A DNA stretch of 64,000 nt, taken from positions 558,001-622,000 of the forward strand of contig NZ_WJIE01000006.1 of the NCBI RefSeq assembly GCF_009649845.1, read 5' to 3'. Source of the stretch: Polyangium spumosum (GTDB taxonomy: Bacteria > Myxococcota_A > Polyangia > Polyangiales > Polyangiaceae). The stretch's first letter is position 1; every line of letters begins with the position of its first letter. The notes under the pieces were generated by a model that saw only the letters and a program-made list of their open reading frames with translations, was not told the origin of the DNA and ran no database searches. Shown piece after piece: positions 1 through 44,597 of this stretch. The position numbers and the translations under genes were made by a program.

Positions 1-175
1 GCTCACGCCCGCGCAGATCCGCGAGGGCCTGCTCGCCACGGCCGCGCCGATGCCGCAGTTCCCGAAGATCCAGCAGGGCGCAGGCTTCATCCGGCCACGT
101 CAGGCCGTGATGTGGGCGCAGCAGAAGAAGCAGGACAAGTCCGTCGCCGTGGTGGAAGAAGGCGCGCTCGAATAG
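1..175 (+). CDS. C-terminal end of a probable subtilisin-like (S8) protease, partial
   Basis: Only the last 57 codons are in the window, in the frame beginning at base 2, with a TAG stop at 173-175. The visible peptide has the shape of the tail of an S8 peptidase domain: a TPAQIREGLLATA helix followed by QGAGFIRPRQAV. This is like the LTPxQVxxxLxxTA...GAGxVxPxxAV end that follows the catalytic Ser in subtilases. A Lys/Gln-rich acidic tail follows. The catalytic residues lie outside the window, so the call rests on the C-terminal pattern alone. It converges on the sulfate-binding protein gene with only 3 nt between the two stop codons. Confidence 0.5.
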   Translation, partial: LTPAQIREGLLATAAPMPQFPKIQQGAGFIRPRQAVMWAQQKKQDKSVAVVEEGALE

Positions 176-178
176 CGC

Positions 179-1216
179 TCACGGCTCCGCGTACACGCTC
201 TCCCACGTGCGCGGAAAGACGCCGTCCTTCGCGAAGAGCTTCGGCTGGGCCTCGTCCCAGCCGCCGAGATCGTCGATCCGCGCGGGGGCTTCGACCTCGG
301 GGAACGTGAGCGCGTGCGCGGCGCGCACGGCCGGGTCGTCGCTGCGGAAGCCGTACTTCGCGAGGATGTGCGCGGCTTCGTTGGAGCTCAAATAATCGAC
401 GAAGGCCTCGGCCTCGGGCAAGAGGCCGTGCTTTTTGGCGTTCACGTCGACGACGGCCGCCATGACCTCGACGACCATCGCCCCGGGGGGGATCACCATG
501 TCGTAGGTGCGGCCCGCGGCGCGGCCCGCGAAGACCTCGCTCTCGTAGGTGACGGCCACGTCGCCGACGCCCCTCTCGAAGGTGATGAGGCTCTCGCGCG
601 CGCCCTTGTCCATGATCGCGACGTTCCCGAGCACGCCGCGGAGATATCCGCGCGCGGCGCCCTCGTCGTTCGCGGCGACGCCCGCATGTCCGCGGAGCGC
701 CGAGGCCCAGAGGGCGCTGACGTTCCACATCGCGCCGCCGCTCGTCTTCGGGTTCGGCATGAGCACGTCGAGGCCGGGGCGCGCGAGATCCGAGAAGCCC
801 GTGATGCCCTCGGGGTTGCCCGGACGAACCGCGAGGGCCACGACAGAGGTGGTGAAGGCGCCGCGCCTGCCGCGCGCGCGCCAGTCGTGCGTGATGAGGT
901 GCTCCTTCTCGAGGCGCGTGACGTCGGGGGCGAGCGCGAGCACGACGACGTCGGCAGGAAAGCCGGAGGCGACGGCGCGAGACTGCGCGCCGCTCGCGAG
1001 GTACGAGGCGCGCACGCGGAGGCGCTTGCCAGTACGAGCCTCGTAGCGGGCCCGGAAGGCGGGGAGGAGGCCACGTTCGAACGCGTCACGCGGCGCGGAG
1101 TACGCGGCGAGGACGAGCGTGACGTCCGCCTCGGGTTCGCGGCGCGTGCTTCGGTCCGAGCACGACGCGAGCCCGAGGAGGACGACGAGCGCGAGGGCGA
1201 GGCGCGCCCAGCGCAT
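179..1216 (-). CDS. sbp: Sulfate/thiosulfate ABC transporter substrate-binding lipoprotein
   Basis: The 345-residue product is a periplasmic solute-binding protein of the sulfate/thiosulfate family (Sbp/CysP), which hands the oxyanion to a CysTWA-type permease. The N-terminus is a lipoprotein signal with lipobox LASC, so it is likely membrane-tethered. Family-typical stretches are visible: a GAQSRAV segment, the PADVVVLALAPDV strand, the NPKTSGGAMWN loop that lines the anion site, and a YESEVFAGR region. Length is normal for the family. It is the second gene of a minus-strand pair, starting 3 nt after the Kelch gene stop. No permease or ATPase gene is in the window, so its transporter partners must lie elsewhere. 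Confidence 0.85.
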   Translation of the reverse strand: MRWARLALALVVLLGLASCSDRSTRREPEADVTLVLAAYSAPRDAFERGLLPAFRARYEARTGKRLRVRASYLASGAQSRAVASGFPADVVVLALAPDVTRLEKEHLITHDWRARGRRGAFTTSVVALAVRPGNPEGITGFSDLARPGLDVLMPNPKTSGGAMWNVSALWASALRGHAGVAANDEGAARGYLRGVLGNVAIMDKGARESLITFERGVGDVAVTYESEVFAGRAAGRTYDMVIPPGAMVVEVMAAVVDVNAKKHGLLPEAEAFVDYLSSNEAAHILAKYGFRSDDPAVRAAHALTFPEVEAPARIDDLGGWDEAQPKLFAKDGVFPRTWESVYAEP

Positions 1217-14909: not shown

Positions 14910-16162
14910 GCAGAGGCTGCAGCGCGGCCCGCGCGCAGGCCCGACGTGACGGCCTCGAGCAGCGTGCGCGGGCGGCCCGCGAGGGCGTCGCCCGCGACGA
15001 AGAGGCCCGGCGCGGCGCGGCCGCCGGGCGCATGTACGCCGACGGCTTCGAGCGCGGAAGGCGCGGCGTCCCTGGGCCACGCGGTCTGATCGAGCTCGGG
15101 GCCTTGCATCGAAGCGACGACGTCGAGCGGGCCCCGGCCGAGCGCGAGCGCGACGGGCGCGTCGATCGAGAGCGCGAAGGGGACACGGCCCCTCGGCGGG
15201 AGGTCCTCGCCGGCTCCATGCTCGGGAGGCTCGTAGACGATGCCGCCGCCCGCGACGCCGCCCATCGCGATCACCACGGCGTCGGCCGCGATCCGCGCGG
15301 TGTCGTGCGAGCGCGTGAGGAGGAAACGCGCGCCGTCGTGGACGAGCGAGACGGCGCGGTCGCGGATCCGCTGCACGCCGAGCGCGTCGAGCAGCCTCTT
15401 CTGCGCCGCATCGAAGCGCAGGCCCGCCGCAGAGCCGACGCCGACGAGCGCCTCGCCGACGGGAACACCGACCCGCGCGGAGAGCTCTGCCGCGCTCGCC
15501 GCGCGCGCGCCGAGCCAGGAGCCGAGCAGCACCGCAGAAGCGGGTTCGCCGTCGCGGAGGCGCGTCTCCGCGCCGATGGCCTCGCGCAAACGCTCGGCGA
15601 GCCAGCCGATCCGCGCCGGGTCGTCGTGCCGCGCCGCGAGGTCTCCGTCGGAGATCCGCGCCTCGTCGGCGAAGCGCAGGACGGGCGCGTCGAAGGCCTC
15701 GAAGCGGAGGCCCGCGCGGCGCGCGAGCGGATCGTCGGAGAGCGTCGCGGCGATGGCGTCGGCGTCCCAGCCGGCGCGCGGGGTCCGGGGCAAGAGCACC
15801 CGCTTGCCCCGGAGCGCGCCGAGATCGAGCAGGCCCTTGTCGCGGCCACGCGCGGGGCGAAGGCGGCCCGCGACCGTCGCGACGAACGGAGGCGGGGCCT
15901 GATCCGGCAGGTCCCAGATCCCGAGCGCGTCGGAGAACGATTGGACCTCCAATGAAATGGCGTGGAGCTCGATCGGGCTGCCGAGCGTACGCGCCGCGCG
16001 CACGCGCTCCTCCCAGGGCACGTCGTCGACGGCGCCGCCGCCGAGCGAGCTCGCGCCCGCGCCGGCCGAGACGAGGACGACGTCGGCGCCGCTGTTCTTC
16101 GCGGCGAACGCGGCCGAGAGGCCCGCCGCGCCCGCGCCGAGGACGAGGACCTTGTGGCTCAC
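14906..16162 (-). CDS. glpB: FAD-dependent glycerol-3-phosphate dehydrogenase subunit B-like
   Basis: The 418-residue product starts at a GTG overlapping the glpA stop by 4 nt. The N-terminal dinucleotide-binding motif is clear (VLVLGAGAAGLSAAFAA), as is a C-terminal FAD motif (PGLFVAGDALAG). The body matches the GlpB-type FAD/NAD-binding subunit of anaerobic glycerol-3-phosphate dehydrogenase, which passes electrons from GlpA to the membrane chain. The membrane FeS subunit GlpC is not adjacent, so the electron acceptor must differ or be encoded elsewhere. The last gene of a four-gene minus-strand run; its stop overlaps the ctpA stop. Confidence 0.75.
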   Translation of the reverse strand: MSHKVLVLGAGAAGLSAAFAAKNSGADVVLVSAGAGASSLGGGAVDDVPWEERVRAARTLGSPIELHAISLEVQSFSDALGIWDLPDQAPPPFVATVAGRLRPARGRDKGLLDLGALRGKRVLLPRTPRAGWDADAIAATLSDDPLARRAGLRFEAFDAPVLRFADEARISDGDLAARHDDPARIGWLAERLREAIGAETRLRDGEPASAVLLGSWLGARAASAAELSARVGVPVGEALVGVGSAAGLRFDAAQKRLLDALGVQRIRDRAVSLVHDGARFLLTRSHDTARIAADAVVIAMGGVAGGGIVYEPPEHGAGEDLPPRGRVPFALSIDAPVALALGRGPLDVVASMQGPELDQTAWPRDAAPSALEAVGVHAPGGRAAPGLFVAGDALAGRPRTLLEAVTSGLRAGRAAASA

Positions 16163-17886
16163 GCGGCCTCGCCTTCTTCGAGGTCGCGCGCGTCCACGCC
16201 GAGCTCGGCGCGGACCGCGGCGATCGCCAGCGCCTCCTGCTGCGCCTGCTCGGGCCCGAGCGCGACGGCGCGGGTCTGCGCCTGGCGCGCGAGGAAACGC
16301 GCTGCTTGTTGCAGGCCCTCGCGCGGCGGCAGCTCGAGCTCCTGCGCCACGATTTGCCCACAACGCGCGGCGCAACGCATGCCGCCGCACGCGCCGAGGC
16401 CGAGCCGCGTCCTGCGCGCGACATCGGAGACCGAGCGGGCCCACTCGGTCCGCACCACGTGCCGCACCTCGGCCTCGATCACCGGCTCGCACGCGCACAC
16501 GATCGCCGCCTCGCGGGGACGCTCGTGCACGCGCTCGGCGATGCGCAGCGAGCGTGACCCGTGCCGGAACACGAGCCGCCGCGCCGCGACGGGATCGATC
16601 TCCATCCGCGCGGCGAGCTCGATCGCGTCGACGGGCGCGTCGCCGCCGGGCAGCGGGCGCTCGTGCGTGGCGCAGCGCGCGCCGAGGTCGAAGCGCGCCG
16701 CGAGGACGTCGGTCATCTCCTCGGCGAAGATGCGGTAGCTCGCGAGCTTGCCGCCGATCATCGAGTAGACGCCCGGCGCCTGGTGCTCGGCGTGGTCGAC
16801 GATCTCGTGCTCGCGCGAGAGCCGATCCTCGTGCGGGCCGTAGGCGTAGAGCGTCGGCCTGACGCCGGCGTAGGTGCCGATCGCGCGCGCCGTGTGGATC
16901 TGCGGGAAGACGCGGGCGACGCCCTGCACGAGGTAACGCACCTCCTCGCTCGTCGCGCGGACCTCGTCGAGGTCGCCGTAGAAGTCGTCGTCGGTCGTGC
17001 CGACGATCGTCATGTTCTGCCAGGGCGCGACGAAGATCTGCCGGCCGTCGATGGTCTGCGCGGCGACGGCGTAGTTCAAGAGGCGCCGGTCGTAGACGAC
17101 GTGGATGCCCTTGCCGGGGCGGACGCGCGCGCGGGTCGGCGCGACGCGGCCGAGCGACGCCGTGATCGGGGCCCACGCGCCCGTCGCGTTGATGACCGTG
17201 CCCGTGCGCAGCGAGCCCGTCCCGCCCGTGCGCCGGTCGCGGTAATGGACCGCGACGACCTCGCCCGTGTCCTCGCGCCGCTCGATCCGCTCCACCGTGC
17301 AGCCGACGAAGATACGCGCGCCGCGCTCGCTCGCGTCGACGGCGTTGGCCGCGCAGAGCCGCGCGCCGTCGATGCCCCACTCGTCGAAGCTGATGCCGCC
17401 GACCATGTTGCCGCGCAGGCCCGGCTCGAGGCGCTGCATCTCCTCGGCCGTGAGCATCGCGTGCTTCTTGCCGTGCTTGAGCGGCTGGTAGCGGTCGTAG
17501 GCCTCGAAAAACGCGTCGATGAGGGCGAACATGATCTTCGCGCGGCCCTTGTTCTCGACGGGCATCAAGAACGGGACGCGGTGAAGCATGTGCGGCGCGA
17601 TGCGCTGGATGTAGCCCGAGTCGCGGCACGAGGTCGCCGTCACGTTCGGGTCGTTCAGCATGTACCGCGGGCCGCCGTGGATGAGGCCGCTGTTGTTGCC
17701 GCTCGCGCCGAAGGCGAGGTCGTTGCGTTCGAAGAGCGCGACGCGCAGGCCTCGCATGGAGGCGTCGCGGGCGACGCCGGTCCCGTTCACGCCGCCGCCG
17801 ATCACGACGACGTCGACGTCGTGGTCGGATCGGCGAGGCTCGGCTTTGGCGGAGTTCTTGACGGGGCGCGGCATGGTGCGCGTCAT
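16159..17886 (-). CDS. glpA: Glycerol-3-phosphate dehydrogenase, GlpA type with BFD-like [2Fe-2S] domain
   Basis: The 575-residue product has an FAD motif (DVVVIGGGVNGTGVARDA) near residue 25 and the DAO fold with GASGNNSGLIHGGPRYM and GKLASYR segments typical of GlpA/GlpD. The C-terminal extension (about 470-530) carries cysteines CAC...CGGMRCAARC of a bacterioferritin-associated-ferredoxin-like [2Fe-2S] domain, the feature that separates GlpA from GlpD. It oxidises sn-glycerol-3-phosphate to dihydroxyacetone phosphate. The ATG at 17886 is chosen; a second ATG at 17874 is possible. It follows the glycosyltransferase gene by 17 nt and overlaps glpB. Confidence 0.88.
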   Translation of the reverse strand: MTRTMPRPVKNSAKAEPRRSDHDVDVVVIGGGVNGTGVARDASMRGLRVALFERNDLAFGASGNNSGLIHGGPRYMLNDPNVTATSCRDSGYIQRIAPHMLHRVPFLMPVENKGRAKIMFALIDAFFEAYDRYQPLKHGKKHAMLTAEEMQRLEPGLRGNMVGGISFDEWGIDGARLCAANAVDASERGARIFVGCTVERIERREDTGEVVAVHYRDRRTGGTGSLRTGTVINATGAWAPITASLGRVAPTRARVRPGKGIHVVYDRRLLNYAVAAQTIDGRQIFVAPWQNMTIVGTTDDDFYGDLDEVRATSEEVRYLVQGVARVFPQIHTARAIGTYAGVRPTLYAYGPHEDRLSREHEIVDHAEHQAPGVYSMIGGKLASYRIFAEEMTDVLAARFDLGARCATHERPLPGGDAPVDAIELAARMEIDPVAARRLVFRHGSRSLRIAERVHERPREAAIVCACEPVIEAEVRHVVRTEWARSVSDVARRTRLGLGACGGMRCAARCGQIVAQELELPPREGLQQAARFLARQAQTRAVALGPEQAQQEALAIAAVRAELGVDARDLEEGEAA

Positions 17887-38518: not shown

Positions 38519-39286
38519 TCATTTGTGCCGCGGATACAGCGCCGTCCGCCAGCCGAGCACGAAGGCCCCGCCGCGGATCGAATTGCCGTACATGTAATCG
38601 TACGAGAGATACGGCCCCATCCCGAGCTTCTTCCCGAAACGGAGCCCCTCGTAAAACACGCCGAGCCCGAGGGCCGAGGTCAAACCTCCGTCGACGAGCA
38701 GCGTGTCCTGGTCGTCGGGCGGCGTCACGATCGCCGTCCCCACGCCCGTCTCGACCATGAGCCCGAGGTCCCGGAGCGGGCCGCCGAGCGTGTAGAGCGG
38801 GAAGACCTCCGTGTGAAACCCGACCATCCCGCTGAACATCACGGTCTCGCCCGCGTCGATCCCGAGCGACCCGAACGTCAGGCCAAACGTCAAGAAATCC
38901 CGTAGCGCCACGCCCATCCAGGCGCGCCCGCCGAAGCCCGCGCCCACGCCCGTGTCCGTGTAGTACCGCGCGAGGCCGATCTTCGTCGGATCGTTCGGGA
39001 AACCCGACACGCTCCCGAGCGACGCGCCGAGCGCGATCCCGAACGTGAAGCTGCTCCGCCGCTCGGGCTTCACCTCGCGCATCGTCGGGTCGTTCTCGTC
39101 CTCGAGGCCACTCGTGCCGAGCGTGCGGACGCCGGCCTGCTCTTTGTTCGCCTCGGCCTGGGCGTCCGTCGTGCTGCGGCCGCCGCGTGGACCTTGCTGC
39201 GCGCTCGCGGGCTCGGCCCACGCGAGCGGCGCGAGCAGGGCGATGGACAACGCAGCCACTTTTTTCGGGGAAACAACCTTCGCCAT
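38519..39286 (-). CDS. Predicted outer-membrane beta-barrel protein
   Basis: A 255-residue exported protein: a signal peptide ending ASAQ (about residue 30), then a linker rich in Gln/Gly/Arg and a C-terminal half of alternating strands (FTFGIALGASLGSVSG, GFGGRAWMGVAL, TFGLTFGSLG, GGAFVLGWRTALYP) with Gly and aromatic residues. This fits a small transmembrane beta-barrel. It ends at the stop 1 nt past the convergent gene. Divergent from the radical-SAM gene across 30 nt. Confidence 0.65.
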   Translation of the reverse strand: MAKVVSPKKVAALSIALLAPLAWAEPASAQQGPRGGRSTTDAQAEANKEQAGVRTLGTSGLEDENDPTMREVKPERRSSFTFGIALGASLGSVSGFPNDPTKIGLARYYTDTGVGAGFGGRAWMGVALRDFLTFGLTFGSLGIDAGETVMFSGMVGFHTEVFPLYTLGGPLRDLGLMVETGVGTAIVTPPDDQDTLLVDGGLTSALGLGVFYEGLRFGKKLGMGPYLSYDYMYGNSIRGGAFVLGWRTALYPRHK

Positions 39287-39316: not shown

Positions 39317-41671
39317 ATGTCCCGCATCGCGATCGTCTTCCCTCCGATCCGCGTCTCGCGCGACTTCATCGACTACCCGTACTTCGCCGACCTCGGCGCC
39401 CTCCAGGCGGCCGCCGTCCTGCGCGAGGCCGGGTTCGAGGTCGACCTCGTCGACGCCCTCGCGATGGAGGGCGCGACGCTCACGAGCCGCGAGGACGACC
39501 CGGGGTACGTGCTCCTCGGCGCGCCGCTCGGCCGGGTCCTCGCGCGTGTCTCCGACGAGACGGACGTCGTGCTCGTCGCGTACACGCCCTTCCATCGGCC
39601 GCCTTCGCGCGACGAACTGCTCGCGAAGCTCCTCGCTGATCTCGCCGCGCATCGTCCTGATCGTCCCCTTGTCTTGGCAGACCTCTACCAGAGCGGCCAG
39701 CACGTCGTCGACGTCCCCTCGCACGAGATCCTCGCCGCCTACCCCGAGGTCTCCGTTTTGATCCGCTACGAGGCGGAGGGCGTGCTCGCGCGCGTGCTCG
39801 AAGACCTCGTCCGGCGAGGCCCGCCGAAGGAGCCCTTCGCCCTCGTCCCCGAGGAGCCGCCGCGCCTCGACGATCTGCCCTTGCCCGCGTGGGACCTCGT
39901 CGATCTGCCCGCCTACTTCGCCTTCCACGAGGCCACGATCCGCGGCCTCGGCCGGCCCCACTGGGCCTTCCCGATCGGCGGCAAGAGCGCGCCCGTCCTG
40001 ACGAGCCGCGGTTGCCCCTACCGCTGCGTCCACTGCTCCAGTAACCCCACGGCCCGCAAGGACGGCGAGCTCGTCCGGCCGAAGACCCAGCGCCGCTACG
40101 CGCCCGCCTACCTCGACCGCCTCCTCGGTGATCTCGCCGCGCGTGGCGTGCGTCGCGTGCACCTGCTCGACGAGCTCGTCAACGTGAACGAGCGGCACTT
40201 CGACGCCGTGCTCGACCTGCTCGAGAAGCACGATCTCGGCTTCGAGATCCCCAACGGCGTCCGCGCCGACTACGTCCTTGCGCGTCACGTCGAGGCCATG
40301 AAGGGCCGCATGACCACGCTGAGCGTGAGCGCCGAGAGCGGCGTGCAGAGGGTCGTCGACGAGGTCGTGGACAAGCAGCTCGACCTCTCGGCCATCCAGG
40401 CCGCGGCCCGGCTCGCGCAGCAGGCGGAGCTGCCGATGCTCGTGCACTTCATGATCGGCCTGCCCGGCGAGACGAAGCGCGACATCAACGGCACGCTCGC
40501 CTTCGCGCTCGACCTCTTCGAGCAGACGGGCGCCTTCCCGAGCGTGCAGTTCGCGACGCCGCTGCCCGGCACGCGCCTCGGCGCCGAGGCCAAAAAGAAG
40601 GGCCGCGCGTTGCCCGTGGTGAGCGACTGGGGCCCGCGCTTCCAGCAGGTGCCCACGATCGCGACCGACGCCTTCACCGAGGAGGACCTGCGCCGCTTCA
40701 AGTGGACGTTCGACGAGCGCATCCGGGCCTCCGAGGGGCCGAAGAAGGTGATCATGAACGTCACCTACAAGTGCAACAACCGCTGCACCTTCTGCGCGAC
40801 CGGCACGCGCTCGCAGTTCGACGGCGACCTCGATCGGCAACGCGAGCTGCTCGTGAAGTACCGCAAGCTCGGCGTCACGCTGCTCGACTTCGACGGCGGC
40901 GAGCCCACGCTCAACCCGAACCTCGTCCGCCTCGTCCAGTTCGCGCGCCGCATCGGCTACGAGCGCGTCAACGTCACCACGAACGCGCGCATGTCGAGCT
41001 ACGAGGCGTACGCGAGAGAGCTCGTCCACTCCGGCGTCACCTCGATCCTCACGAGCATCCACGGCCCCGACGCGCAGACCCACGCGCAGAACGTGGGCGT
41101 CGCCGAGGCCTTCGATCAGACCGTCGCGGGCGTGAAGAACTTCGTCCGCCTCGCCCCGCCGGGCGTCGAGCTCGGCGCGAACATCACGCTCACGAAGTCG
41201 AACCACAAGAAGCTCTTCGACGTCGCCGCGCTCGTCTTCGACCTCGGCCTGCGCTGGTTCAACATCCAGTTCCTCACGCCCTTCGGGCGCGCCACGAGCT
41301 CGGTCTGCCCCGACACGGCCGCCGCCGCCGCGGAGACGAAACGGACCATCGACGCGTTCCGCGATCGCATGAAGATCCAGGTCATCAACCTGCCCTTCTG
41401 CTTCATGCCCGGCTACGAGGACTTCCTCCTCGGCGACATGCTCAAGCTCGAGCGGCACATGCTCTTCGTGAACAACGAGGAGGTGAACCTCTTCGAGTAC
41501 CTGCGCGAGCGGCGCGTGAAGAAGCCCGTCTGCGAGGCGTGCCCGCACGAGGTCTTCTGCGGCGGCTTCTACGAGCTCGAGGACGTCCCCGAGCCGACGT
41601 GGCTCATCCGGCCCGAGGATCTCGTCCGTCCGATCGCAGCGGATGTTCCGCGACCGTTCGCGCGCCACTGA
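39317..41671 (+). CDS. Tandem radical-SAM protein: B12-binding-type radical SAM fused to a second radical-SAM domain
   Basis: A 784-residue single chain with two radical-SAM cores. The first half has a Rossmann-like N-terminal domain as in cobalamin-binding BchE-type enzymes (no DxHxxG motif seen) and a first cluster site Cys233-x3-Cys237-x2-Cys240 (RGCPYRCVHC), followed by SVSAESGVQRVV and FMIGLPGET. The second half has its own site Cys486-x3-Cys490-x2-Cys493 (KCNNRCTFC), DFDGGEPTLNPNL and a C-terminal CEACPHEVFC triplet that could bind an auxiliary FeS cluster, as in SPASM-type proteins. Two cores in one chain suggest successive radical steps on one substrate. The substrate is unknown. Its 3' end overlaps the convergent ZIP gene by 68 nt. 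Confidence 0.8.
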   Translation: MSRIAIVFPPIRVSRDFIDYPYFADLGALQAAAVLREAGFEVDLVDALAMEGATLTSREDDPGYVLLGAPLGRVLARVSDETDVVLVAYTPFHRPPSRDELLAKLLADLAAHRPDRPLVLADLYQSGQHVVDVPSHEILAAYPEVSVLIRYEAEGVLARVLEDLVRRGPPKEPFALVPEEPPRLDDLPLPAWDLVDLPAYFAFHEATIRGLGRPHWAFPIGGKSAPVLTSRGCPYRCVHCSSNPTARKDGELVRPKTQRRYAPAYLDRLLGDLAARGVRRVHLLDELVNVNERHFDAVLDLLEKHDLGFEIPNGVRADYVLARHVEAMKGRMTTLSVSAESGVQRVVDEVVDKQLDLSAIQAAARLAQQAELPMLVHFMIGLPGETKRDINGTLAFALDLFEQTGAFPSVQFATPLPGTRLGAEAKKKGRALPVVSDWGPRFQQVPTIATDAFTEEDLRRFKWTFDERIRASEGPKKVIMNVTYKCNNRCTFCATGTRSQFDGDLDRQRELLVKYRKLGVTLLDFDGGEPTLNPNLVRLVQFARRIGYERVNVTTNARMSSYEAYARELVHSGVTSILTSIHGPDAQTHAQNVGVAEAFDQTVAGVKNFVRLAPPGVELGANITLTKSNHKKLFDVAALVFDLGLRWFNIQFLTPFGRATSSVCPDTAAAAAETKRTIDAFRDRMKIQVINLPFCFMPGYEDFLLGDMLKLERHMLFVNNEEVNLFEYLRERRVKKPVCEACPHEVFCGGFYELEDVPEPTWLIRPEDLVRPIAADVPRPFARH

Positions 41672-42488
41672 CGAGGCCCTTCACCACCACCGCCGCGACG
41701 AGGAGCACGACGCCGAGCACCCGCACGGGCCAGCCGAGGTGCAGCACCCACCCGTCGGGCTCGAGGCTCACGAGCGCGATCGACAGACCCACGAGGCCCG
41801 CCACGATCTCCGTCACGCGGCTGCGCGTGTTCTCGTCGCCCACCTTCGGCGCGTGCGTGAGCGCGTGCAGCAGGAGCCCCGCCACCGACGCCACGAGCCA
41901 CGGCCGGACCGCCGCGAGCCGCTCCTCGCCCACGAGGTCGAGCGACACCGCGCCGCACGCCGTCGCGACCACACACCCGACGAGCGCGAGCGCCGCGACG
42001 ACCCGCTTCTTCGGCCCCTCGACGTGCTCGAGCGCCTGGATCGCCACCACCATCGCGAGCGGCACCGTGTGCCCCGCGATCGCGAGGACGAGCGTCGGCT
42101 GAAGCTCCGCTGCGCGCGCGAGCGAAGCGACGGCCGTGCCCTCGCCGGCCTGGTGCAAGAGCACCGCCAGGTACCCCACGAGCAGCGCCGGCCCGTCCGT
42201 GTGTGCGTGCCCGTGCCCGTGTGCGTGCGCGTGCGCGTGGCGCGGCGCCACGAGCCGCTCGATCAGGAAAGGCACGAGGAAGCCCGCCACGGCCGCGCCG
42301 AGCGCGAGCCATCCGGCGTCGGCGATCGCCTCGGGCAGGAGGTGCAAGAGCGCGATCGCGGCCGAGCCGACCATCGCGAACGTCCCGAGCCCCGGCATGA
42401 CGCGTTGCCCGTGGTCACGCCAGATCGCGGCGAGGCCGCCGAGGAGGACGGCGAGCGCGAGGACGGCGAGCCCGGCGGCGAGAGACAC
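41604..42488 (-). CDS. ZIP-family metal transporter
   Basis: A 294-residue protein with about eight transmembrane helices. Between TM3 and TM4 is a His-rich loop (RHAHAHAHGHGHAH). TM4 has the HQAGEG metal site and TM5 the GHTVPLA segment, equivalent to the conserved HExxG/HEIP motifs of ZIP proteins that import zinc or related divalent ions. The GTG start at 42488 is used; no in-frame ATG is near. TACGAC, one base from the -10-like pattern, lies 7 nt upstream. Its C-terminal codons overlap the 3' end of the radical-SAM gene on the other strand. Confidence 0.8.
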   Translation of the reverse strand: MSLAAGLAVLALAVLLGGLAAIWRDHGQRVMPGLGTFAMVGSAAIALLHLLPEAIADAGWLALGAAVAGFLVPFLIERLVAPRHAHAHAHGHGHAHTDGPALLVGYLAVLLHQAGEGTAVASLARAAELQPTLVLAIAGHTVPLAMVVAIQALEHVEGPKKRVVAALALVGCVVATACGAVSLDLVGEERLAAVRPWLVASVAGLLLHALTHAPKVGDENTRSRVTEIVAGLVGLSIALVSLEPDGWVLHLGWPVRVLGVVLLVAAVVVKGLVSGARTVAEHPLRSDGRDPRAG

Positions 42489-43382: not shown

Positions 43383-43784
43383 ATGGGCAGCGAGACCTAT
43401 CACGAGCCATACGACGTCCTGTCCCCTGGCGCCCGGGAGATGCACCGGGCGATCTGGTCTTTGATCGAAGAGCTCGAGGCCATCGATTGGTATGCGCAAC
43501 GCGCCGAGGTCACGACCGACCCGGAGCTCGAGGCCGTCCTCCTGCACAACCGCGAGGAGGAGATCGAGCACGCCATGATGAACCTCGAATGGATTCGCCG
43601 GAAAGACGCGTTATTCGACGAAAAAATCCGCACGTATTTGTTGAAGACCGCGCCCATCACCGAGATCGAGGAGCGCTCGGAAGGAGGGGAGGGCGGGGGC
43701 GAAGACGAAAAGGCGGCGGCGCCCGCGAGGCCTCAACTGGGCTCGGGTCGTGGGCTCGGCATCGGCAGCTTGAAGGGGAGGTGA
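43383..43784 (+). CDS. encFtn: Encapsulated ferritin-like protein (EncFtn), encapsulin cargo
   Basis: A 133-residue two-helix ferroxidase. Close resemblance to Rhodospirillum and Haliangium EncFtn: HEPYDVLS near the start, MHRAIWSLIEELEAIDWYAQRA and HNREEEIEHAMMNLEWIRR. Glu30, Glu60 and His63 occupy the positions of the known iron ligands Glu32, Glu62 and His65. Such proteins form decamers with iron sites between subunits and oxidise Fe(II). After an acidic linker the C-terminus ends in LGIGSLKGR, the encapsulin-loading peptide. The shell gene starts 3 nt after the stop, so stoichiometry is set by one transcript. Confidence 0.95.
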   Translation: MGSETYHEPYDVLSPGAREMHRAIWSLIEELEAIDWYAQRAEVTTDPELEAVLLHNREEEIEHAMMNLEWIRRKDALFDEKIRTYLLKTAPITEIEERSEGGEGGGEDEKAAAPARPQLGSGRGLGIGSLKGR

Positions 43785-43787
43785 GCC

Positions 43788-44597
43788 ATGGCCATGGATC
43801 TGCTTCGCCGCAATCTCGCTCCGATCCTGCCCGAGGCGTTCGAGCTCATCGACGCCGAGGCGCGGCGCGTCCTCGAATTGAGCCTCGCGGCGCGCAAGCT
43901 CGTCGATTTTCGCGGCCCGTTCGGCTGGGGATATGCCGCGCGGAACACGGGCCGGCTCCGGCCGCTCGGCGAGGGCCCCGTCCCCGGCGTGACCATCGGG
44001 CAACGCACGTCCCAGCCGCTGCTCGAGCTCCGGACGCCCATCGTGCTCGACCTCCCCGATCTCGACGCCGTCGCGCGCGGGGCGGCGGACGTCGACCTCT
44101 CGGCCGTGGTGCAGGCGGCCGAGCGGATCGCGCGTGTCGAGGACGGCGCCATCTTCCACGGTTATGCCGAGGGCGACATCCCCGGCATCGTGCAGAAGAG
44201 CCCGCACCCGCCCGTGCGTGTCCCGTCCGTCACGGCGTTCCCCGCGGCGGTCGTGCAGGCGAAGGAGGTCCTGCGATCGGCCGGGGTGACGGGCCCGTAC
44301 GTGCTCGTGGCTGGCTCGCGTGAATACGACGAGCTCGCGGCGGGCTCGGACGACGGGTATCCGATCTTGAAGCGCATCGAGCGACAGATCATCGATCACC
44401 CGGTCGTCTGGGCGCCCGCGCTCACCGGCGCGGTGCTGCTCTCCGTGCGCGGCGGCGATTTCGAGCTGACGGTGGGGCAGGACCTCTCGATCGGATACAC
44501 GTATCACGAGAAAAACAAGGTCGAGCTCTTCCTCACGGAGTCGTTCACCTTCCGGGTGATCGAGCCGCAGGCCGCCGTGGTCTTGCGTCGCGGCTGA
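43788..44597 (+). CDS. enc: Encapsulin shell protein (family 1)
   Basis: A 269-residue HK97-fold shell protein of the linocin-M18 type, about the length of the T. maritima encapsulin. Visible are the N-terminal helix LLRRNLAPILPEAFELIDAEA, a RVLELSLAARKLVDFRGPFGW segment that forms the cargo-binding pocket, YPILKRIERQIIDHPVVWAPAL and the C-terminal FTFRVIEPQAAVVLRRG. It assembles into a 24-42 nm compartment that stores iron oxidised by EncFtn, protecting against iron and oxidative stress. Start at the first ATG (43788); a second ATG two codons later is possible. Confidence 0.96.
   Translation: MAMDLLRRNLAPILPEAFELIDAEARRVLELSLAARKLVDFRGPFGWGYAARNTGRLRPLGEGPVPGVTIGQRTSQPLLELRTPIVLDLPDLDAVARGAADVDLSAVVQAAERIARVEDGAIFHGYAEGDIPGIVQKSPHPPVRVPSVTAFPAAVVQAKEVLRSAGVTGPYVLVAGSREYDELAAGSDDGYPILKRIERQIIDHPVVWAPALTGAVLLSVRGGDFELTVGQDLSIGYTYHEKNKVELFLTESFTFRVIEPQAAVVLRRG

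Follow-up and report, generated by a model that had tools for sequence, protein, structure and literature searches.

What a single protein does with two radical S-adenosylmethionine (SAM) cores is the question raised by P0001, which is encoded in the window analysed here, a 64,000-nucleotide stretch of Polyangium spumosum (contig NZ_WJIE01000006.1, positions 558,001 to 622,000). This protein, referred to below as the fusion, is associated with HxsA4, HxsB, HxsD and HxsC4 of the His-Xaa-Ser (Hxs) peptide system and with a companion radical SAM protein, both by co-occurrence and, in part, by physical linkage. We consider that the fusion is probably a maturase dedicated to the HxsA4 variant of the Hxs system and performing two reactions, with a probability of roughly 0.68. 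Its features, in window coordinates, are as follows.

39317..41671 (+), two-core radical SAM protein P0001, 784 aa; stop-free frame with full-length homologues
39317..39886 (+), N-terminal Rossmann-type domain, residues 1-190, with the predicted fold of a class-B radical SAM cobalamin-binding domain (AlphaFold2 model)
39887..40726 (+), first radical SAM core, residues 191-470; Pfam stretch, relatives AprD4 and MgmA
40013..40036 (+), first cluster site, Cys233-x3-Cys237-x2-Cys240 (CPYRCVHC), in 55/55 aligned sequences
40727..41668 (+), second radical SAM core and C-terminal extension, residues 471-784, HxsC/HxsC4-like (NF038332 and fold matches)
40772..40795 (+), second cluster site, Cys486-x3-Cys490-x2-Cys493 (CNNRCTFC), in 54/55 aligned sequences
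41399..41560 (+), C-terminal Cys695, Cys739, Cys742 and Cys748, a putative auxiliary [4Fe-4S] site, in 55/55 aligned sequences

The Pfam model PF04055 (Radical_SAM) covers two stretches of the fusion (1.5e-31), and it is thus a two-core member of the superfamily. The initial annotation, made without database searches, had placed the two Cys triads in one open frame, and both are exactly where it put them. It had also raised the possibility of a frame-splitting error. None was found, and full-length versions of the fusion are present in many independent assemblies, which excludes chance, a frameshift or an assembly artefact. Gene fission in one genome (G222) is apparent only, as both pieces end at contig ends.

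Association of the fusion with the HxsA4 system

The 289 genomes searched all belong to one class, and the p-values of Fisher tests made on them ignore relatedness. The thresholds were E ≤ 1e-60 for the fusion and HxsB, E ≤ 1e-80 for HxsC4 and the curated cut-off for HxsA4, the precursor with a (His-Gly-Ser)n-Trp end (E ≤ 1e-6 for weaker matches). The fusion was found in 89 genomes, HxsB in 96, HxsC4 in 71 and HxsA4 above cut-off in 85. Among the 89 fusion genomes, 84 contain HxsB, 69 contain HxsC4 and 78 contain HxsA4 above cut-off; the other 11 have a weaker HxsA4 match (eight) or none (three). Twelve genomes have HxsB and no fusion. Five of these carry HxsA4 (G025, G041, G133, G213 and G287) and seven do not. 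Four of the seven (G229, G244, G247 and G094) have precursors of the classical HRSHSS type, and the companion was missing from the six that were tested for it.

In a chosen set of 70 of the 289 genomes, the companion was found in 39 of the 40 with the fusion versus 2 of the 30 without it, and both of the latter (G025 and G135) carry HxsA4. Relatives of a second two-core radical SAM protein found in the window's genome were present in 23/40 and 0/30, respectively. A patchily distributed control gene from the window, EncFtn, showed no association with the fusion in the same set (15/40 versus 8/30, p = 0.44).

In at least 29 of the 89 fusion genomes, the distance from the fusion to HxsA4, HxsB or HxsC4 is no more than 30 kb. 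This count is a lower bound, because the HxsA4 positions were used in part and nearly all HxsB and HxsC4 matches under the cut-offs were left out. A set of 76 loci (genome_contigs), for which 9 kb flanks were requested, were scanned using bit thresholds that we chose ourselves. HxsA4, HxsB, HxsD or HxsC4 was found in 16 of them, the companion in 33 and either in 40; 36 of the 76 are near full length (at least 19.8 kb), and 11 of these 36 carry HxsA4, HxsB, HxsD or HxsC4. Examples that exceed the curated cut-offs are HxsB at L013:14284-16122 (542 bits, cut-off 370), HxsC4 at L024:18425-19522 (583 bits, cut-off 500) and HxsD at L041:138-722 (57.1 bits, cut-off 50). Gene clustering across 70 relatives' loci placed a broad radical SAM group near the fusion in 41 of them (97 copies).

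The fusion is close to both HxsA4 and HxsB in loci L011, L013 and L082. In L013, from Minicystis rosea, the fusion, a small protein of family fam7, an HxsD homologue, an HxsD-like frame (identified by comparing its sequence with L135, see below), HxsB and HxsA4 follow one another in this order on one strand. In L082, from an Elusimicrobia metagenome-assembled genome (MAG), the order is HxsB (518 bits), HxsA4 (114 bits), a radical SAM gene, the fusion and a further radical SAM gene. In G032 and G014, HxsB is flanked by two copies of the fusion, each with all ten of the Cys listed above. His-Xaa-Ser repeat frames are present in 23 fusion loci, and those of the (HGS)n-Trp type in 9 of the 76 genome_contigs loci. 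Paired HxsA4-type precursors at L027:15077-15820 and 15923-16468 (-) have His-Gly-Ser runs far longer than those of the window's genome.

The closest full-length relatives of the fusion are in Polyangium species (92-93 % identity). Most of the 76 loci are titled Myxococcota or 'Deltaproteobacteria'. The exceptions include L082, L045, L071 and L073, the last of which is titled Nanoarchaeota and is possibly a mis-binned contig.

The window's genome (G000, 10.76 Mb) contains HxsA4, HxsB, HxsD and HxsC4, and belongs to the HxsA4 branch by gene content. The genes are listed below, where L135 corresponds to G000:C6:133000-152000.

L135:9440-9736 (-), HxsA4 precursor (NF038313, 111.8 bits, cut-off 55)
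L135:9788-11299 (-), HxsB (550 bits)
L135:11296-11541 (-), HxsD-like (76 bits)
L135:11538-12023 (-), HxsD (60 bits)
L135:14121-14975 (-), HxsC-like radical SAM protein (107 bits to HxsC, under cut-off)
G000:C12:53935-54924, HxsC4 (599 bits)
L114:12241-13938 (G000:C4:630240-631934), companion radical SAM protein, adjoining a radical SAM-methyltransferase fusion gene
L117:7490-9337 (G000:C19:81492-83336), second two-core radical SAM protein; both cores match HxsC4/MoaA/HxsC-type models

The C-terminus of this HxsA4 consists of His-Cys-Ser followed by a His-Gly-Ser run, and its last residue is Trp. HxsA4 and HxsB (G000:C6:142442-144241) are on the same contig as the fusion (G000:C6:597317) and not adjacent to it. 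As the Hxs parts are scattered over the genome, the window by itself is uninformative on the substrate. The remark in the initial annotation that the adjacent genes reveal no substrate therefore holds for the window, but not once the loci of relatives are compared, in some of which HxsB and HxsA4 lie beside the fusion. Of the substrates that it had offered, a peptide agrees with the link to HxsA4 by co-occurrence and linkage. A hopanoid or tetrapyrrole-like molecule finds no support; HpnJ is a weak match to the N half only (45.8 bits, cut-off 577.6).

Other genes were observed around these parts. The gene at L114:10430-12244 (G000:C4), just upstream of and overlapping the companion gene, encodes a radical SAM core and a SAM-dependent methyltransferase domain in one protein. 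The open frame L117:8724-12407 (+) (G000:C19), which runs divergently from the second two-core gene, has two CxxxCxxC sites and, after them, what appears by eye to be a Gfo/Idh-type oxidoreductase domain. Within the HxsA4/HxsB region, the product of L135:12072-14114 (-) includes seven putative metal-binding motifs of the MopE type (PF11617). The family fam7, small proteins with a twin-arginine-like start by eye, recurs in fusion and Hxs neighbourhoods (L135:14980-15525 (-), L013:12539-13069 and L024:2761-3498), and neither NCBIfam nor Pfam models matched the members scanned.

The neighbours of the fusion in the window are listed here.

38519-39172 (-), divergent frame upstream of the fusion, no Pfam match
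41604-42488 (-), ZIP-like gene, below the Pfam cut-off
43383-44597 (+), EncFtn-like ferritin (PF22277, 4e-36) directly followed by an encapsulin shell gene (PF04454, 2e-83)

The EncFtn-like ferritin ends in GLGIGSLKGR, which we take to resemble a cargo-loading tag. Deducing a substrate from the neighbours in the window (DUF4272, the ZIP-like gene and EncFtn/encapsulin) was considered and rejected, as EncFtn, the one of these that was profiled, does not track the fusion.

Architecture and relatives of the two halves

Conservation was assessed in an alignment of 55 dereplicated sequences including that from the window, drawn from 93 usable sequences with an 85 % identity filter and restricted to those that cover about residues 20-740. 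The two halves are colinear in all 55. All ten Cys are intact in 54, and the only deviation over the 15 motif positions tested is in L061, where the second triad is Ser-Ser-Ser. This protein is nevertheless full length, and its genome encodes another copy in which the second triad is intact. Other conserved motifs are R231-G232 and S338-A339-E340-S341 in the first core and G527-G528-E529-P530 in the second. Cys664 is found in just 6 of the 55 sequences.

The C-terminal CxxCx5C reported in the initial annotation is correctly positioned (CEACPHEVFC, Cys739/742/748). However, a SPASM motif has seven Cys and two auxiliary clusters, and past the second core of the fusion only four Cys are conserved, including Cys695, which had not been listed. 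Four Cys leave space for one auxiliary cluster, hence the fusion lacks a complete SPASM domain, and a single auxiliary [4Fe-4S] cluster is probably bound here.

An AlphaFold2 model of the fusion was made using 52 of the aligned sequences (set A1, which lacks L059, L065 and L066; a further set, A2, comprised 25 of 53 prepared). Its mean predicted local distance difference test score (pLDDT) was 90.4 and its predicted template modelling score (pTM) was 0.89. Fold matches were computed for candidates preselected by Foldseek, and the list of matches therefore says nothing about absence. The highest Z score for the N half was with AprD4 (6fd2; Z 26.4, 408 residues, 3.7 Å, range 1..745), followed by MgmA (9ccb; Z 25.2, 355 residues, 3.7 Å, range 3..478), which Foldseek ranked first, and by CysS (Z 24.5), OxsB (Z 24.3) and TsrM (Z 22.2). 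OxsB, TsrM and CysS align with model residues 1 to 460-473 (Z 22.0-24.5), and this includes the Rossmann domain before the radical SAM core. From about residue 470, the matches are viperin (Z 22.6), SkfB (21.7), SuiB (21.3) and BlsE (21.3). A sequence-profile search of the PDB gave AprD4 as the best match (1.7e-22) over the first core, and BlsE and PqqE over the second.

Among the best 25 of 67 NCBIfam matches, the highest was to HxsC4 (NF038332) on the C half. The score of 113 bits is below the cut-off of 500, and the C half is accordingly a relative rather than a member of HxsC4. The nearest models for the N half were AprD4 (60 bits) and BzaD (57 bits), and CofG-like and CofH-like cores, as in FbiC, were not among these 25. 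The fusion is thus modelled as a class-B (cobalamin-type) half joined to an HxsC/HxsC4-like half. The initial annotation had proposed a B12-binding type of N half, which is borne out at the level of the predicted fold, and a SPASM-like second half, which agrees with the NCBIfam match and the fold as far as HxsC/HxsC4 likeness is concerned.

The model and the alignment also reveal a conserved P91-F92-H93-R94 loop after strand 84-88 of the N domain. In OxsB, TsrM and TokK, residues of the strand-3 loop sit under the Co (PMC13331322). The loop may likewise supply a residue under the cobalt, but it is only suggestive because a search of the PDB using the profile of the N domain found no cobalamin protein.

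Divided copies and alternative explanations

Three genomes (G075, G232 and G245) each carry a reciprocally specialised pair of fusion copies. In the N half, copy A shares 57-64 % identity with the window protein and copy B shares 30-35 %; for the C half, the values are 31-39 % for copy A and 64-78 % for copy B. Copy B lacks the first Cys triad. The second triad is missing from copy A of G075, and copy A of G232 and G245 has all ten Cys. Root-to-tip distances, from trees that exclude L065 and L066, follow the same division. For the N half these are 1.4-1.5 for copy A and 3.3-3.8 for copy B (median of the others 1.33), and for the C half 2.3-3.3 for copy A and 1.15-1.41 for copy B (median of the others 1.38). 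More than one copy is also found in G042, G001, G032 and G014, and in the last two there is no such split. As an intact version of each core is present in all three genomes with divided copies, the reciprocal split suggests that neither core is dispensable and that the two are able to work on separate chains. This is independent support for the two chemical steps envisaged in the initial annotation.

In the mechanism that we propose, each half would generate its own 5'-deoxyadenosyl radical and carry out its own step, and the substrate would be the (His-Gly-Ser)n peptide itself. The N half, judging from its class-B fold in the model, may use cobalamin for methylation or a related step, with AprD4-like chemistry as the alternative. 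The C half, as a relative of HxsC4, would form a C-C or C-X bond or oxidise, acting on the same repeats. At least six proteins of G000, with at least eight radical SAM cores between them, could be involved (HxsB, the HxsC-like protein, HxsC4, the companion, the fusion and the second two-core protein). That they make up a radical assembly line modifying every His-Gly-Ser repeat is a tentative idea, which we regard as doubtful. If it is true, the N half would carry out cobalamin-dependent C-methylation and the C half cross-linking, and the product would be a modified imidazole peptide of polymer-like character and of a new chemical class.

A number of findings weigh against a role in HxsA4 maturation. 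The fusion is far under the cut-offs of all of the 25 best NCBIfam models, no peptide-recognition domain was found in it using Pfam, and its N-terminal domain has no Pfam match to a B12-binding domain up to 0.01, in addition to the PDB profile result given above. AprD4, which gave the highest Z score in the fold comparison of the N half, has a sugar substrate. HxsA4, HxsB and HxsC4 are not within 30 kb of the fusion in the window or in the six genomes of the genus, which leaves co-occurrence as the only link there. HxsB is below threshold in five fusion genomes (65-86 % complete), and HxsA4 is above cut-off without the fusion in seven genomes, three of which (G025, G135 and G254) are at least 93 % complete. 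The fusion is therefore not universal within the HxsA4 branch. G004 has the fusion beside HxsB and lacks the companion. Finally, the distant relative in L073 (34 % identity) is found among eight further radical SAM-group frames, and no HxsA4 or His-Xaa-Ser repeat frame and no HxsB were found on this 12 kb contig (L073:1-12019).

Some of these findings would suit a fusion that belongs to the HxsA4 pathway and does not act on the peptide, making instead a small-molecule donor or cofactor or modifying another protein of the pathway. AprD4 is an aminoglycoside dehydratase and BlsE, the best PDB sequence match of the C half, a nucleoside decarboxylase, and in Polyangium-like genomes the fusion lies outside the HxsA4 operon. 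However, MgmA, whose target is a glutamine within a protein, comes close behind AprD4, the C half is also matched by the peptide maturases SkfB and SuiB, and the fusion is near HxsA4 and HxsB in three loci. We consider this explanation unlikely. It is still less credible that the fusion is an unrelated metabolic enzyme with an Hxs-like distribution through shared ancestry alone. The profiles do come from one class, the Fisher test ignores the tree and linkage is absent within this genus, but EncFtn shows no association in 70 of the same genomes, and physical linkage is recurrent and extends to a MAG of another phylum.

The retention of motifs bears on how the two cores work together. A single catalytic core with the other serving as a scaffold would account for the full-length protein with a Cys to Ser second triad (L061) and for the loss of the first triad from copy B in three genomes. 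Given that every lost triad is retained in the other copy of the genome concerned and that both triads are kept in 54 of the 55 aligned sequences, this is extremely improbable. A narrower form of the maturase reading, and compatible with it, is a coupling like that of FbiC, in which the cores act sequentially on one molecule to give one product with channelling between them. Colinearity of the halves in all of the aligned sequences fits with this, but the two activities are apparently on separate chains in G075, G232 and G245, and channelling within a single chain is thus not obligatory. The archaeal counterpart of FbiC is also two proteins, CofG and CofH (PMC11917521). We view such coupling as possible rather than probable.

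Comparison with known systems

Each half of the fusion resembles known enzymes. AprD4, a radical SAM diol dehydratase, is like the N half by fold and profile but has a single core, and its substrate is an aminoglycoside (PMC5461906). MgmA, the methyl-coenzyme M reductase glutamine methylase, is like the N half over residues 3-478 and acts on a protein according to its entry title. It differs in having a single core, about 20 % identity and an unrelated substrate. SkfB (6efn) and SuiB (5v1q), which are maturases of ribosomally synthesised and post-translationally modified peptides (RiPPs), share the core fold of the C half, but the fusion has only four auxiliary Cys and would have another class of substrate.

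Two-core proteins are also known. FbiC (FO synthase), like the fusion, has two radical SAM domains per chain; unlike those of the fusion, its cores are of different families and its product is a small molecule. According to PMC11917521, the two domains joined in FbiC occur as two proteins in archaea, which makes FbiC a precedent for such joining. The second two-core protein of G000 also has two cores but is without a class-B half.

The closest known system is Hxs, in its HxsA4/HxsC4 branch (NF038313, NF038332, TIGR03978 and TIGR03976), which is found in the same genomes and partly in the same gene clusters as the fusion. HxsC4 gives the best, though below cut-off, match to the C half, and the tested genomes with HxsB and neither the fusion nor HxsA4 look classical. 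To our knowledge, none of HxsA-D corresponds to the class-B half, and we know of no Hxs product. No experimental work on Hxs peptide systems was found in the literature searched, where their definition is computational only, and no report of the fusion, its link to HxsA4 or the reciprocal split was found in the open-access literature searched. His-Xaa-Ser motif peptides putatively depend on HxsB and HxsC (PMC9062424). NCBIfam already includes HxsA4, HxsB, HxsC4, HxsD and an HxsD-like family, and the system is therefore of a known, computationally defined kind. To this, the HxsA4 branch gains a two-centre core enzyme that is not named by the NCBIfam models searched, together with a genome-wide list of parts. 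The three genomes in which the centres have apparently been given to separate copies are a natural experiment, through which the action of each core on the repeat becomes testable. If the N half uses cobalamin, class-B and HxsC-like chemistry would be joined in one chain.

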